Source: Candidatus Falkowbacteria bacterium CG10_big_fil_rev_8_21_14_0_10_39_11
Lineage (GTDB): Bacteria > Patescibacteriota > Patescibacteriia > UBA11705
Direction of reading: 5' to 3'
Assembly: GCA_002773615.1 (NCBI GenBank)
Contig: PFAP01000003.1
Span: 18,234 to 51,465, forward strand
DNA length: 33,232 nt
Below are positions 2,112 to 33,003 of this stretch, piece after piece. A program made the position numbers and the translations under genes. The notes beneath the pieces were generated by a model. That model was not told the DNA's origin and searched no databases. It worked only from the letters and a program-made list of their open reading frames with translations. The first letter of the stretch is position 1; every line of letters starts with the position of its first letter.

Positions 2112-2167
2112 GTCCTCCGTTTGGCGGTCAGGAATGGGGCTGTCTGGAATACTAGCCCACAGATATA

Positions 2168-2196
2168 ATTATATGCAGTTCCAAGTTAATAGTCAA
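2168..2196 (-). promoter_or_regulatory. sigma70-type promoter
   Basis: Minus strand TTGACT - 17 nt - TATAAT. Confidence 0.75.
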
Positions 2197-2257
2197 GAAT
2201 AAAAATTGGTAATATGTTAATGGAGGCAGTATCTGAATTGAAAATTAATAAAGGTAT

Positions 2258-7677: not shown

Positions 7678-7755
7678 TGGTGTGCCCGGCCCACCTTCGT
7701 CAAGGCTTCGGCGGACAGGCATGATAGGCTTCTTCGTCCTGCGAAACAATTTAAG
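7678..7755. repeat. Duplicated tRNA-Arg 3' end (13 nt) plus CPR-type palindrome
   Basis: TGGTGTGCCCGGC at 7678-7690 repeated at 7756-7768; intervening CCACCTTCGTCAAGGCTTCGGCGGACAGG. Confidence 0.8.
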
Positions 7756-8457: not shown

Positions 8458-8547
<90 letters not shown>

Positions 8548-8790
8548 TTAATCTATTATAACTTTGTCTAAATATTTTCTACCTTGTCCACTTTTTAAAA
8601 ATCTTTCTCGTTTCATCGCCTCATTTCTAGTTTTATATTTTTCTGAGTAAACCAATATCCACGGCTTTCGTCCCTTGGTATATCGGCATCTACCATTATT
8701 ATGTTCGATTATCCTGACACCAATATCTTTTGTGCTTCCTATATATCTTGTTCCATATCTTATACTTTTTATAACGTAGATAAAAAACAT
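8548..8790 (-). CDS. GIY-YIG nuclease-family small protein
   Basis: 80 aa: FIYVIKSIRYGTRYIGSTKDIGVRIIEHN...; stop codon abuts the tRNA-Ser 5' end. Confidence 0.88.
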   Translation of the reverse strand: MFFIYVIKSIRYGTRYIGSTKDIGVRIIEHNNGRCRYTKGRKPWILVYSEKYKTRNEAMKRERFLKSGQGRKYLDKVIID

Positions 8791-8801
8791 AAGTTACAAA
8801 A

Positions 8802-8956
8802 TAAGGATGGGATTCCTCGCCAAAGGACGAGTGCGCCCTTGGCACAGAACCCACGGTCCCCGTTAAGGGACTCTAGTTTTCAAGACTAGCACATTCCTAG
8901 CCGAAGGACTAGTCCGTCCTTTGGCGGAGACCACTCTGTCACCTCTCCTTAATCTA
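8802..8956 (-). pseudogene. Second copy of tRNA-Ser(TGA) interrupted by two palindromic inserts
   Basis: 50 nt (8847-8896) identical to 8478-8527; inserts 8816-8846 and 8897-8928, both at TTC^GA; 5' flank TTAATCTA also duplicated. Confidence 0.9.
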
Positions 8957-9033: not shown

Positions 9034-9170
9034 ATGGCAGAGAGGGAGGAATTTCTAGCGTCACTGCGCTCCTTTGGGAAACCCATGGTTTCCCAGCCTT
9101 CCTCTGCGGGAAACTACCGTTTCCCGAACCCTTCCCGTTCGGATCCCAATAAAGGATCCTATTTATACTA
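9034..9170 (-). pseudogene. Degenerate tRNA-Ser(GCT)-like 3' fragment with 71 nt palindrome-bearing insert
   Basis: TGGCaGAGAGGGAGGaaTTTC | insert 9056-9126 | GAACCCttcccg..CCCAATAAAGGatcc versus intact TGGCGGAGAGGGAGGGATTCGAACCCTCGGTACCAATAAAGGCAC. Confidence 0.75.
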
Positions 9171-9262
<92 letters not shown>

Positions 9263-23661: not shown

Positions 23662-25551
23662 TTATACTTGTGCTTGTTCAGCGTCTTCTTGGGCTTTTTT
23701 CCGTTTTTTCTCCATTTCCAACAACTGGGCTGGATTGGAAGTGATCACAGAATCCTCGAGCCCAGAGGCAACCACCTTGATAGCGGCGTGTTTGGATCCG
23801 GCAAAGAAAATACCTTCACCAACATTACTCTCAAGTAGCAGCATTTTTTCCCCTTCGGTCAAAGCAAATGTTTTGACGATAACATCGATAGCGGATGATG
23901 ATTGTTTGAGTAAAATCTTTAACGCTGAGTTGTTGACAATACCCGGGCCATACTTTGAAGTCAAAAAGTCATTGACATCCTGAGTAATAGTGGTAATCCC
24001 AAGATAATATTTTCGTCCACGCTTGACCAATCCATGCAAAAAACGAGCTGAGTCATCATACATCATCAGCCACCAAGCCTCATCAACCACCAGAATACGT
24101 TTTTTTAGCTCTGAGCGAACAACGTTCCAAACATAGTTGATAATGTTGTACAAAGCCATTGGACGAAGCTCATCCTCAAGATCGCGAACAGAAAATGTGA
24201 CTAACTGATTGGCCATATCAACATTGGTTGGAGAATTGAACAGACCAGAAAATGTTCCGGTGGTATATTTGCGCAAGCGCAGGGCCAAATCAGCCCCACC
24301 GTCCATACCATCCAAAACCTCATACAAATCCTGCATTAAAGGCGGTTCAATCTTGTCCAGATCACTATCTGGAGTAATATCTTTTTTGGCATATGTCTGA
24401 ATCAAAGCTTGATCTAGAATTGTATCTTCCTGAAATGTCAGCTTACCAAGCATCAGCTTTAATAAACCCTTGATACTGATCACTGCACTACGGATAATGT
24501 CCTCGACAGATGAATCTTCACCGACGCCTCGGGGCAAATCAAAAGGATTAATCTTGCTCTCAGAATTGAGAGAAATGTTGACATATGTTCCACCAACAGC
24601 GTCTGACAACAGTTTGTATTCTCGCTCAGGGTCAATAATGATCACATCTGTGCCCATCATCATTGAACGCAGAACTTCAAGTTTGATCGTATAACTTTTA
24701 CCGGCACCAGAAGTCGCAAAAACTGTGCAGTTGGCATTTTGAAGACTGAAACGATCAAAAATAATCAAACTATTATTGTGCCTATTTATTCCATATAAGA
24801 TGCCTTCTTCTGAAGTCAAATCAGAAGATATAAAAGGAAATGACGATGCGATTGGCGAAGAATTCATGTTGGAAGTAATCATAAGCTCGTCATTGCCTAT
24901 GGGCAAGGTTGAATTGAACCCTTGCTCAGATTGATAGAAAACCCGTTTGGTATAAACCATTCGTGAGCCAAAAACCGCTTCGATGTCTTCGGTCAACTTG
25001 TCCAACTCATCCTCTGACTTGGCGTAAAGAGTGGTGTACAAACCAAATTGAAAAAATTTTTCAGTGCCCTGAGTCAAATCATCACGCAATTGTTCAATAT
25101 CACGCAATGCGGTCTCTCTGAGTGGATCTCTTGGCTTACCTTTTTCTGCCCCAGCATTCAATGAAGCCTGCAAAATACCAACTTGTCTCTTCAACTGCTT
25201 TAAAACTACCGGTGACTCCATGGGATAAAAAAACATACTAATATCCAGTGACGAGTTGTAGTTGATAATGGGAGAAAACCAACCGACTGAAATGTATCGC
25301 GGATAAGTCATGACAAACAACGTCCGGGCATACCAACTGCCCAATTTGATGAATGATGGCTTGACCTCAAACGCAGCCGGGGCAACCAAATCTAAAACAG
25401 ATACAACACCCTGACGATACAGTTGTTCATCTTCAATTATTTGTTCGCTTTTTTTGCTCTGTGTTTCAATTTTTTTCTCTTTCTCAATTTCATTCAATTC
25501 TTCTTTCGGGGCTGCTTTTTTTTCACTTAGAGCGTCTTTAGCATTAAACAT
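23662..25551 (-). CDS. VirB4-family conjugative ATPase
   Basis: 629 aa; FATSGAGKSYTIKLEVLRSMMMGTDVIIIDPEREY, RILVVDEAWWLM. Confidence 0.93.
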   Translation of the reverse strand: MFNAKDALSEKKAAPKEELNEIEKEKKIETQSKKSEQIIEDEQLYRQGVVSVLDLVAPAAFEVKPSFIKLGSWYARTLFVMTYPRYISVGWFSPIINYNSSLDISMFFYPMESPVVLKQLKRQVGILQASLNAGAEKGKPRDPLRETALRDIEQLRDDLTQGTEKFFQFGLYTTLYAKSEDELDKLTEDIEAVFGSRMVYTKRVFYQSEQGFNSTLPIGNDELMITSNMNSSPIASSFPFISSDLTSEEGILYGINRHNNSLIIFDRFSLQNANCTVFATSGAGKSYTIKLEVLRSMMMGTDVIIIDPEREYKLLSDAVGGTYVNISLNSESKINPFDLPRGVGEDSSVEDIIRSAVISIKGLLKLMLGKLTFQEDTILDQALIQTYAKKDITPDSDLDKIEPPLMQDLYEVLDGMDGGADLALRLRKYTTGTFSGLFNSPTNVDMANQLVTFSVRDLEDELRPMALYNIINYVWNVVRSELKKRILVVDEAWWLMMYDDSARFLHGLVKRGRKYYLGITTITQDVNDFLTSKYGPGIVNNSALKILLKQSSSAIDVIVKTFALTEGEKMLLLESNVGEGIFFAGSKHAAIKVVASGLEDSVITSNPAQLLEMEKKRKKAQEDAEQAQV

Positions 25552-30345: not shown

Positions 30346-33003
30346 TTACATCTTGCTAAGTTTTGTCAATTTCTTGTTGTAAGCAGCAATATCCTTGTCA
30401 ATTTCTATAACTTCAGTTGCAGACTTACCAGCCTTACTGCCATTAAGTTCTGCAATTTTGTTATTAATGATAGCGACAGCCGCACCTGTAGACGACCTAA
30501 GATCATCAAATTTACCGCCAATCAGACGAGGATCAAGGGCCATTTCTTCCATGTTATTGGACAACCGAGAAAGACGCTTGGCTTCCGGAGTACCAGCCGC
30601 AGGAGCTAAAGTATTTAGATGAGTAAACTCCGTAATCATTCTGTCCATCATAGCTTCAGCTTCACCAGAACCAACTTCAGAGGCGATTTCGCCCATCTGC
30701 GCTTGAGAAATACTGCTGATGAAAGCTTGGTATTGTTGTTTATTAGATGGTTGTTGAAGCGCGGTCATCTGTGCAGAGTCAATCTTGGCGATATCAGATC
30801 CTTTGGCACCTGAAACAAACTTAGCGATTTCTTGAGCTTGGTCAGCATCAGATAACCCATCAAACGCACCCGTCTCGCCCCCATGAGAAACCAATGTTTT
30901 TGTAATCTTTGCCTTGGCTTGACGCATACGGGCTTGATCTGCCGGTTTAGCTCCAGGCTTACTAATCTCAACATCGAGGGTCTGCAAGACACGTTCCTTG
31001 GCTTTGGGATTCTCTTCAACCATAAGCTGCATCTTTTGAGTAAAGACTTTGTTGCCTAGAGCACTTTGCATACCTGAGACGGCCTCTGGAATATCAAGAA
31101 CGCTTTTGTCCAGTTTAGCCGGATCAATTGTTTTATTTTTTACCGCTGCCTGGAAGTCATCCCGACCCTTTTTACTGGTAAAGTCATATTCCAGATGTTT
31201 CAAAGAATCACCCAGTTTCAACTGAGGCATGACACCCTTGCGGTTGGAATATGATGATCGAATATCCTTGACTGCGTCTGCATCTTTGCCTCCAAGATCA
31301 CCTTGTTGACCCAATATTTTCATAGCAGCAGCTCGCTCATCCATGCTCCTAGATTTATCTTTCATGGTATCCCTAAGAGCTGATTTCCCTTGAGGGTCAG
31401 TGCCTTTATATTTTTCCAGTTTCTTTTCGTATTTTTCAATATTTTCGAGTGCGGATTGTGACGCCGCATAATCCACCCGCTTGGATTGACGGTTGTAGCC
31501 ACCTCGAAGTCCACGAAGACTGCCTGACCCAACGGATTTCAATGTATCGACAGCACCATAACCGAGAGCCCCACCGACAAAACCGGCGGCTCCGGCCAAA
31601 GCGCCAGCAACCTTACGGCCGGCACCGACACCACCAGCAGCAGGAGCAAAGGACTCGTAACCTTCTTTGAAACCTTTGGTACCACCTCTAAATACATTCT
31701 CTGGAATTCGAGCCAAACCACGAGCGGCACCAGCAACGGTACCAGCAACGGCACCAGCAGCGCCAACACTTATCTTGGCTGCACCGGTCGCAAATGGAGC
31801 CAATTTTCTACCAGTATATTTTGTGACGGATTTCCCGCCTTTATAGGTTCGGACACCATATCTTTTCCAGGCTTGAGCCCCACCATATTTTTGACCCTTG
31901 GAGTAGGCCCATTTCCCAACTCCGCTGCCGACGGCACCACCGATTTCTTGACTGATCATGTAGGCGCCATAAAGCATAGCCAGTGACATAACCGCAGGAA
32001 CAAAACTCTCAATATTTTCCAGTGGATGCCTGGTTGGCGGTTCGCCACCGGCTTGAGCACTGGCGGTGAGAGCAGATTGTTGAGAGGTTTGGGTTGTATT
32101 AAAATTGTCTTTAGCATTAGACATCATCAGTAATGATAACCATAAAAAGAAAGCCACCACCGGACCGATCACAACGGTTTTACCAAATTCAGCCCACCAA
32201 CGTTTGGTATATTGGCTGATAATCGGGAATCCAATAAAGTTTAAAAATCCGATTGGTGACAAGATAATCAGAATCCAAATCATAACTATTCGGGTCAACA
32301 GAATGGCTGCCAACATGAATGTAATTATACCGGTAAAGATTAAAAAGACGATGGTAAAAGCCATTATGGCCAAAACTTTCATCCAGTCAACCGTATCCTG
32401 ATTGGCTGAGTTGGCATTGAAATTGAAATATTGAGCCATGCCAATACCCTCGATCAAGTTGGCACCAGCGGTCGCGGCATATCCGTTGACAAAGGTCATC
32501 ATAAAGACTTGCGCCACATCAATCATCAGAGCACTGGCCAATTTACTAAAATTGATCAGTACTGCAACCAAAATAATCTTGACTAGAGCTTTGTTGCCAC
32601 CGACTTTGCCTTCCAATCTAAAAATAATACCAAAAGCATACAAAAGTAAAATGAGAACAATGCCCATATTGGCGATGTCGCGGATGATTACCCAGCCCTT
32701 GGTAACGGCTACATTGCCAAAAAAATTGTCATAAGAACTGACAATAATCAAAAGGACAAAAATCTTACTGACAATTAAACTCAAAATATAAGCAAACCCA
32801 TAAGCGAGGTAAGCCAATATTTTCCCAAGTAATTGCAAAACAGACTCCACCGTTCCAGCTTGAGCAAATCCGGCAACCACAAAAGAGAAGACCAAAACCA
32901 AGATCAGGGTAACTAAAACAGTTTTCTTGTGGCGAAACCTCAGAAAATTTAAAATTCGATAGCCACTAGAACCCAAAAATTGTTTGATTCTAGTTAAATC
33001 CAT
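30346..33003 (-). CDS. VirB6/TrbL-like polytopic membrane protein
   Basis: 885 aa; multiple N-terminal TM segments, Gly/Ala-rich middle, long soluble C-terminal region. Confidence 0.8.
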   Translation of the reverse strand: MDLTRIKQFLGSSGYRILNFLRFRHKKTVLVTLILVLVFSFVVAGFAQAGTVESVLQLLGKILAYLAYGFAYILSLIVSKIFVLLIIVSSYDNFFGNVAVTKGWVIIRDIANMGIVLILLLYAFGIIFRLEGKVGGNKALVKIILVAVLINFSKLASALMIDVAQVFMMTFVNGYAATAGANLIEGIGMAQYFNFNANSANQDTVDWMKVLAIMAFTIVFLIFTGIITFMLAAILLTRIVMIWILIILSPIGFLNFIGFPIISQYTKRWWAEFGKTVVIGPVVAFFLWLSLLMMSNAKDNFNTTQTSQQSALTASAQAGGEPPTRHPLENIESFVPAVMSLAMLYGAYMISQEIGGAVGSGVGKWAYSKGQKYGGAQAWKRYGVRTYKGGKSVTKYTGRKLAPFATGAAKISVGAAGAVAGTVAGAARGLARIPENVFRGGTKGFKEGYESFAPAAGGVGAGRKVAGALAGAAGFVGGALGYGAVDTLKSVGSGSLRGLRGGYNRQSKRVDYAASQSALENIEKYEKKLEKYKGTDPQGKSALRDTMKDKSRSMDERAAAMKILGQQGDLGGKDADAVKDIRSSYSNRKGVMPQLKLGDSLKHLEYDFTSKKGRDDFQAAVKNKTIDPAKLDKSVLDIPEAVSGMQSALGNKVFTQKMQLMVEENPKAKERVLQTLDVEISKPGAKPADQARMRQAKAKITKTLVSHGGETGAFDGLSDADQAQEIAKFVSGAKGSDIAKIDSAQMTALQQPSNKQQYQAFISSISQAQMGEIASEVGSGEAEAMMDRMITEFTHLNTLAPAAGTPEAKRLSRLSNNMEEMALDPRLIGGKFDDLRSSTGAAVAIINNKIAELNGSKAGKSATEVIEIDKDIAAYNKKLTKLSKM

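Follow-up and report, generated by a model that had tools for sequence, protein, structure and literature searches.

A GIY-YIG endonuclease gene between an intact tRNA-Ser(TGA) and its hairpin-interrupted remnant in a Candidatus Falkowbacteria genome, and the recurrence of this layout in other phyla

The DNA analysed here (the window) was a 33,232-nucleotide stretch of contig PFAP01000003.1 of Candidatus Falkowbacteria bacterium CG10_big_fil_rev_8_21_14_0_10_39_11. Read along the minus strand, a tRNA-Ser(TGA) remnant carrying paired-hairpin inserts was followed by a GIY-YIG gene and then by an intact tRNA-Ser(TGA). In ascending coordinates, the features of the locus and the neighbouring tRNA gene were:

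8458–8547, minus strand: functional copy of tRNA-Ser(TGA), intact and located 3′ of the GIY-YIG gene (ARAGORN; Rfam tRNA, 61 bits)
8548–8790, minus strand: GIY-YIG endonuclease gene, 80 aa, UPF0213-like, its stop codon abutting the intact tRNA at 8547 (PF01541)
8804–8815, minus strand: remnant tRNA-Ser(TGA) nt 71–82, 3′ side of the T-stem, the rest of the acceptor arm missing (alignment)
8816–8846, minus strand: 31-nt T-loop insert at TTC^GAA, with hairpins TGTG-CCAAGGG-CGCA and CTCG-TCCTTTGG-CGAG (alignment, folding)
8847–8896, minus strand: remnant tRNA-Ser(TGA) nt 21–70, identical to the intact copy (alignment)
8897–8928, minus strand: 32-nt D-arm insert at GGTC^GAATG, with hairpins TCCG-CCAAAGGA-CGGA and CTAG-TCCTTCGG-CTAG (alignment, folding, dispersed family)
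8929–8948, minus strand: remnant tRNA-Ser(TGA) nt 1–20, one mismatch (alignment)
8949–8956, minus strand: duplicated 8-nt leader TAGATTAA, its second copy directly 5′ of the intact tRNA at 8548–8555 (direct repeat)
9173–9262, minus strand: intact tRNA-Ser(GCT) (ARAGORN)

Nucleotides 1–82 of tRNA-Ser(TGA) were copied at 8804–8948, 80 of them identical, on the minus strand (a correction to the initial annotation). The copy aligned with the intact gene in three pieces (nt 1–20, 21–70 and 71–82), with both inserts as clean gaps, and scored 132.8 against a maximum of 23.0 among 500 shuffles. The identity of 8847–8896 to 8478–8527, described earlier, was confirmed (50/50), and so were the two inserts, 31 nt in the T-loop and 32 nt in the D-arm. 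Both had been placed at TTC^GA; TC^GA was indeed common to the two sites, but the D-arm site read GGTC^GAATG and only the T-loop site TTC^GAA. Removal of the inserts had been expected to restore a tRNA-like sequence. Since the copy had lost the acceptor 3′ end after nt 82, excision yielded only the 5′ portion of a tRNA. Searches of the window with ARAGORN and Rfam detected the intact copies only, and not the split one.

The GIY-YIG gene, lying between the remnant and the intact tRNA, had been overlooked in the initial annotation. Its product matched Pfam PF01541 (3.5e-15). The closest solved chains were the UPF0213 proteins 1ywl (5.9e-7) and 1zg2 (1.7e-6), and matches to PHROG homing endonucleases were weak (8.9e-4 and 0.014). 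The active-site residues of the GIY-YIG catalytic domain (Tyr, Tyr-x-Gly, Arg, His and Glu) were present, and Tyr5, Tyr16, Gly18, Arg26, His30 and Glu62 were kept in 23/23 relatives. The interval between tRNA-Ser(GCT) and tRNA-Ser(TGA) contained neither a GIY-YIG gene nor a second Ser copy in G001 (same genus) and G002 (same family), indicating that these were empty sites. The split copy had been taken for a second tRNA gene interrupted by two related palindromes. It is no independent duplicate struck twice by chance, but the 5′ remnant left where a GIY-YIG cassette integrated at tRNA-Ser(TGA), in a layout that recurs in other phyla with hairpins in the same tRNA loops. Judged from sequence comparison, this cassette architecture is well supported.

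Small GIY-YIG genes were surveyed in 20 genomes, all of them metagenome assemblies, of which 10 carried the hairpin family of the window inserts (family A) and 10 were of the same class and mostly without it; the genomes were read as stretches around matches. A tRNA gene lay within 330 bp at 42 of the 74 loci, and the adjacent tRNAs were on the same strand as the GIY-YIG gene in 62 cases and on the opposite strand in 1. At Y1-transposase loci, which served as a control, tRNA adjacency was 0/31. The other 32 GIY-YIG genes, without a nearby tRNA, belonged mostly to a separate clade. A partial copy of the adjacent tRNA was found at 26 GIY-YIG loci: the 5′ part stood before the GIY-YIG gene if an intact tRNA followed, and the 3′ part after it if an intact tRNA preceded. 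A few loci had both parts, and at other loci an entire 5′ or 3′ half was missing from the remnant.

Of 33 inserts in the partial copies, 21 folded better than 95% of shuffles. Such significant hairpin inserts were present at 17 of the 26 loci with a partial tRNA copy, mostly in tRNA loops, and recurrent sites were the T-loop (TTC^GAA or TTC^AAA), the D-loop, the anticodon stem (NNN^GACT) and the anticodon loop. Several unrelated hairpin sequences occurred in the remnants, all of them as two adjacent hairpins (e.g. GCCCCGTCATCCGACGGGGC and GTCCGGTCGGATGACCGGAC in tRNA-Ser(GGA) of an Omnitrophota genome, TCAATCTTCGATTGA and TCAGTCGAAGACTGA in tRNA-Glu of G013, and GCCCAGCATGCGCTGGGC and GCCCGGCGTATGCCGGGC in tRNA-Ser(TGA) of G006). 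DNA folding of the unrelated pairs gave two hairpins with complementary or nearly complementary loops. A description of this remnant-hairpin-GIY-YIG layout was not found in the open-licence literature on tRNA palindromes, GIY-YIG with tRNA, or Patescibacteria GIY-YIG.

In a tree of 71 GIY-YIG proteins, 35 of 42 rows on one side were tRNA-adjacent, against 4 of 29 on the other (support 99/90). The adjacency label changed 10 times on this tree, compared with 23.7 times after shuffling (0/500 shuffles were as low). The window enzyme grouped with those of the tRNA-Gln loci of two Omnitrophota genomes, G384 and G386 (support 97/96), with 55–59% identity to them and 29% to another GIY-YIG protein of its own genome. 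The Omnitrophota tRNA-Gln remnants carried family A as in the window: the D-loop contained a 32-mer and the T-loop a 31-mer. The three tRNA-Gln loci are probably homologous by descent and therefore count about once.

A second family, of GTCATCCGAC-type hairpins, was detected in exactly 2 of the 20 genomes, once in each, and both times at a GIY-YIG tRNA remnant (the T-loop of tRNA-Ser in an Omnitrophota genome and the anticodon loop of tRNA-Arg in a class relative of the window). The loops were kept and the stems differed between the two copies. The enzymes beside them, from different phyla, were sisters (support 98/86). In the cases compared, which form two clear groups, hairpin type appeared to follow GIY-YIG type across phyla.

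That the inserts belong to one palindromic family, as initially proposed, was borne out by further copies in the window's genome and in others. The proposed hairpin form was upheld as to palindromy, but one long hairpin gave way, by covariation, to what are probably two adjacent small ones. Stem pairs covaried across 62 distinct copies (a set pre-filtered for stem pairing) and bases paired only in the long hairpin did not, suggesting that the family-A unit, NNNG-CCNNAGGA-CNNN plus NNNG-TCCTNNGG-CNNN, probably consists of two adjacent hairpins. Among copies fetched without a stem criterion, 49/58 paired 8/8 in two 4-bp stems; in other genomes of the window's class, 1/15 matches did so. One long hairpin was rejected as the conserved form, bases 7/8 versus 25/26 being without covariation. 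Energy folding of the two window inserts alone favoured the long hairpin.

The pattern CCNNAGGA-N8-TCCTNNGG gave more copies in the window's genome and in two relatives (G001 and G002), and a reversed control pattern gave almost no matches. Family A, from single to about 40 copies per genome, was present in Omnitrophota, Planctomycetota, Brocadiaceae, Melainabacteria, Nomurabacteria and Magasanikbacteria assemblies. In a pattern search across the class ABY1, only G135 looked real outside the window's family, the other matches being without stems. The copies that were followed lay in tRNA genes, remnants and intergenic repeats. The flanks of 62 distinct sites gave the preference TTN^NAA: position −2 was T in 64% of them, position +2 was A in 64%, and −3/+3 were T/A in 45%. 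The earlier idea of a palindromic mobile element preferring TTCGA agreed with this in that TTC^GA fitted the site preference, but positions −1/+1 varied, and copies elsewhere gave a mixed picture, with T(−2)/A(+2) in most and not in all. Of the 62 sites, 17 lay inside a pre-existing hairpin loop (stem of at least 5 bp), compared with 7.5% of random positions (p=2e-6). Mirror-symmetric flanks were rejected, because −i/+i pairing was barely above partner-shuffled flanks (p=0.03) and an enclosing hairpin stem described them better.

In one Omnitrophota genome (G381; L129, L142, L175, L298–L317), most hairpin copies lay within other dispersed repeats (TTTGTCATTG^CGAGTCCCGC and GGAGC^GAAGC), which suggests nested insertion followed by spread of the composite. 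A tRNA-Lys(CTT) 3′ remnant on contig C14 of the same genome (L334) contained an insert that resembled the window hairpin pair but appeared to have an additional hairpin inside each of the two loops: TCCGCC-(TTCCGCAAAGCGGAA)-GGACGGA plus CCCGTCC-(CACCTGAGGCAGGTG)-GGCGGG, with the bulged A and T kept.

Family-A inserts were also found in other tRNA genes. In the window's genome (G000), one lay in the anticodon stem of an array tRNA-Tyr(GTA) on contig C22 (GCG^GACTG) and another in the T-loop of a tRNA-Gly-like sequence on contig C32. The syntenic array of G002 contained an otherwise complete tRNA-Ser(TGA) with a T-loop insert at TTC^GA, and ARAGORN detected the tRNA after excision. In tRNA hosts, excision restored the host sequence exactly, with no target duplication. 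Array tRNAs with inserts were redundant with CCA-bearing copies elsewhere; the C22 tRNA-Tyr also had a degraded acceptor, and an intact tRNA-Tyr exists.

These array inserts bear on the origin of the hairpins, which, as the main alternative to insertion by the GIY-YIG enzyme, could be independent dispersed repeats moved by some other enzyme, with many TTN^NAA loop sites and with tRNA insertions surviving only in redundant copies (GIY-YIG remnants and accessory arrays). Such an origin fits the dispersed 32-nt copies of family A, about 100 of them and at many non-tRNA places, as well as their TTN^NAA preference and their excess in hairpin loops. Counting against hairpin insertion by the GIY-YIG enzyme, 34 of 35 genome copies in some MAGs were far from any GIY-YIG gene, and a family-A hairpin lay beside only 4 of the about 47 GIY-YIG loci of those genomes. 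The inserts in C22 tRNA-Tyr and in the G002 tRNA-Ser, redundant array tRNAs without an adjacent GIY-YIG gene, also fit an independent origin. Such an origin does not fit the GTCATCCGAC family, which was confined to two GIY-YIG tRNA remnants, in different phyla and beside sister enzymes. The joint presence of a D-loop 32-mer and a T-loop 31-mer in the window and in the Omnitrophota remnants, beside related enzymes, also argues against it, and we regard an independent origin as rather unlikely.

In REPIN/RAYT systems an enzyme is paired with a hairpin family, and the elements are inverted pairs of short hairpins (PMC3116915). The window inserts are likewise inverted pairs of short hairpin modules, one with a bulged base; they showed no target duplication and a strand-specific looking flank, and Y1 genes were present in most of the genomes. 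Mobilisation of REPIN-like elements by a Y1 (RAYT/IS200-type) transposase is nevertheless improbable. REPs adjoin their RAYT gene (PMC3116915), but modules were near 3 of 22 Y1 genes in hairpin-bearing non-Falkowbacteria genomes (one doublet at about 600 bp), no clear module was found at any Falkowbacteria Y1 gene, and one genome with 5 copies (a MAG) gave no Y1 match. The enzyme at the present loci is of the GIY-YIG and not the Y1 type, and Y1 genes were without flanking modules. With adjacency so inconsistent, a Y1/RAYT transposase was rejected as the mover.

The inserts might also be tRNA introns removed from RNA, leaving a functional copy, in line with their precise insertion, which removed no tRNA bases at their sites; this is highly improbable, because, in distinction to intron-bearing tRNAs, the host tRNA is incomplete (its 3′ acceptor half is missing, with an intact tRNA-Ser(TGA) present), other remnants lack whole 5′ or 3′ halves, and the C22 tRNA-Tyr has a degraded acceptor and an intact counterpart. 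A functional interrupted tRNA was rejected on these grounds, the array copies being redundant and the remnant truncated. An assembly artefact, which metagenome assemblies throughout and palindromes that are hard to assemble could favour, is equally improbable since independent assemblies, produced by different projects and representing different phyla, show the layout again.

Among the closest known systems to the cassette at tRNA-Ser(TGA) is that of phage T4/T6 SegB. SegB is a GIY-YIG homing endonuclease encoded next to tRNA genes; it cuts inside tRNA genes at the motif RAWTSGAAC, which corresponds to the T-loop of the opposite strand, and through recombination it causes tandem amplification of the tRNA together with its own gene (PMC13096335). 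The window GIY-YIG gene resembles that described for SegB in adjoining a tRNA, with a duplicated tRNA. The genes of that report are phage genes, however, and the part of it available to us does not describe paired-hairpin inserts in a displaced tRNA copy (PMC13096335).

Because the T-loop inserts lie between S and G of the SegB motif, itself the T-loop of the opposite strand, we infer a sequence of cutting, duplication and closing. As SegB cuts tRNA genes, so would the nuclease, in loop motifs (GATTC^GAAC in the T-loop). Repair would duplicate the tRNA and install the cassette, leaving one tRNA copy intact, and a cognate paired hairpin would enter the redundant copy where it is cut, destroying the site there. 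In some genomes, family A may also have reached further TTN^NAA sites in trans, many of them in loops of existing hairpins. The intact tRNA-Ser(TGA) retains the same T-loop motif, which counts against the cutting model unless its escape is explained. By analogy with SegB, the window enzyme may cut the tRNA and may itself place the hairpins, with a putative protective effect. Taken whole, a GIY-YIG homing-endonuclease cassette at tRNA-Ser(TGA), with SegB-like cutting and a cognate hairpin closing the redundant copy, seems to us a reasonably probable explanation.

The same arrangement in several bacterial phyla, with hairpin type following enzyme type in the cases compared, suggests an undescribed kind of mobile element. 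This might be a system of enzyme plus DNA hairpin, in which every GIY-YIG subclade has a hairpin family of its own that it places in loops of target tRNA genes, the cassette keeps one tRNA whole, the redundant copy is inactivated, and one family also targets other hairpin loops; we find such a system conceivable but lean slightly against it. If true, such a system would cross phyla and be the GIY-YIG equivalent of RAYT/REPIN. tRNA genes are common integration sites, yet it is not self-evident how a homing nuclease can target an essential tRNA and leave its host alive; the layout is one recurring outcome, in which one tRNA copy stays whole and the loops of the other are blocked. Should hairpin and enzyme prove cognate, short dispersed hairpin repeats, which in several groups have had no enzyme to account for their movement, would gain a testable one outside the Y1 transposases. 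For annotation, truncated tRNAs that lie next to a small GIY-YIG gene and carry unusual inserts should be read as cassette remnants, not as introns or decayed duplicates.

Cyanobacterial small dispersed repeats (SDR) are 21–27 nt long, share a predicted secondary structure with compensatory changes, and insert precisely into a fixed site, with nested insertions; we know of no nuclease partner described for them. Mitochondrial double-hairpin elements are short, consist of two hairpins and are thought to be mobile; to our knowledge they have not been tied to tRNA remnants or to a cognate enzyme. Family A resembles both in its two small hairpins, compensatory stem changes (in the pairing-filtered set of 62 copies) and exact insertion without target duplication. 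Comparison with Rickettsia palindromic elements is weak, these being longer and located inside protein genes.

Two further relics were found in the window:

9035–9155, minus strand: second relic, a tRNA-Ser(GCT) 3′ remnant with hairpins at 9054–9124 in the T-loop and no GIY-YIG gene left
7678–7690, minus strand: probable third relic, a second copy of the final 13 nt of tRNA-Arg(GCG), lying 3′ of the intact gene and separated from it by palindromic sequence

The tRNA-Ser(GCT) remnant comprised pieces at 9144–9155, 9140–9142, 9125–9132 and 9035–9053, and scored 37.5 against a maximum of 23.4 among 500 shuffles. The tRNA-Arg(GCG) relic was weak (26 against a maximum of 22 among 500 shuffles).

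The syntenic accessory tRNA array (G000 C22:10900–12600, L001; G002 C1:19421–19959, L051; G001 C5:85122–86917, L094) was mostly without encoded CCA. Its members with hairpin inserts were tRNA-Tyr, tRNA-Pro, tRNA-Ser and tRNA-Arg, never the same gene in two genomes. Other palindromes of the array were CTTGCCTGCCGTAGTTTCAACGAAGGCAGG in the anticodon loop of tRNA-Arg(TCT), TTGCCTACCGGCAGGCAG in the D-loop of tRNA-Leu(CAA) and one of about 30 nt in the D-loop of tRNA-Pro(TGG) in the window's genome (L094 323–426, L095 653–758 and L001 about 2120–2240, minus strand). In the G001 array (L095 423–522), a run of N lay exactly inside the anticodon arm of tRNA-Leu(TAG), perhaps an assembly break at another palindrome. 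Elsewhere in the window, an 885-aa ORF (30346–33003, minus strand) had no Pfam match, and a 629-aa ORF (23662–25551, minus strand) contained a TraG/HerA-type P-loop domain.
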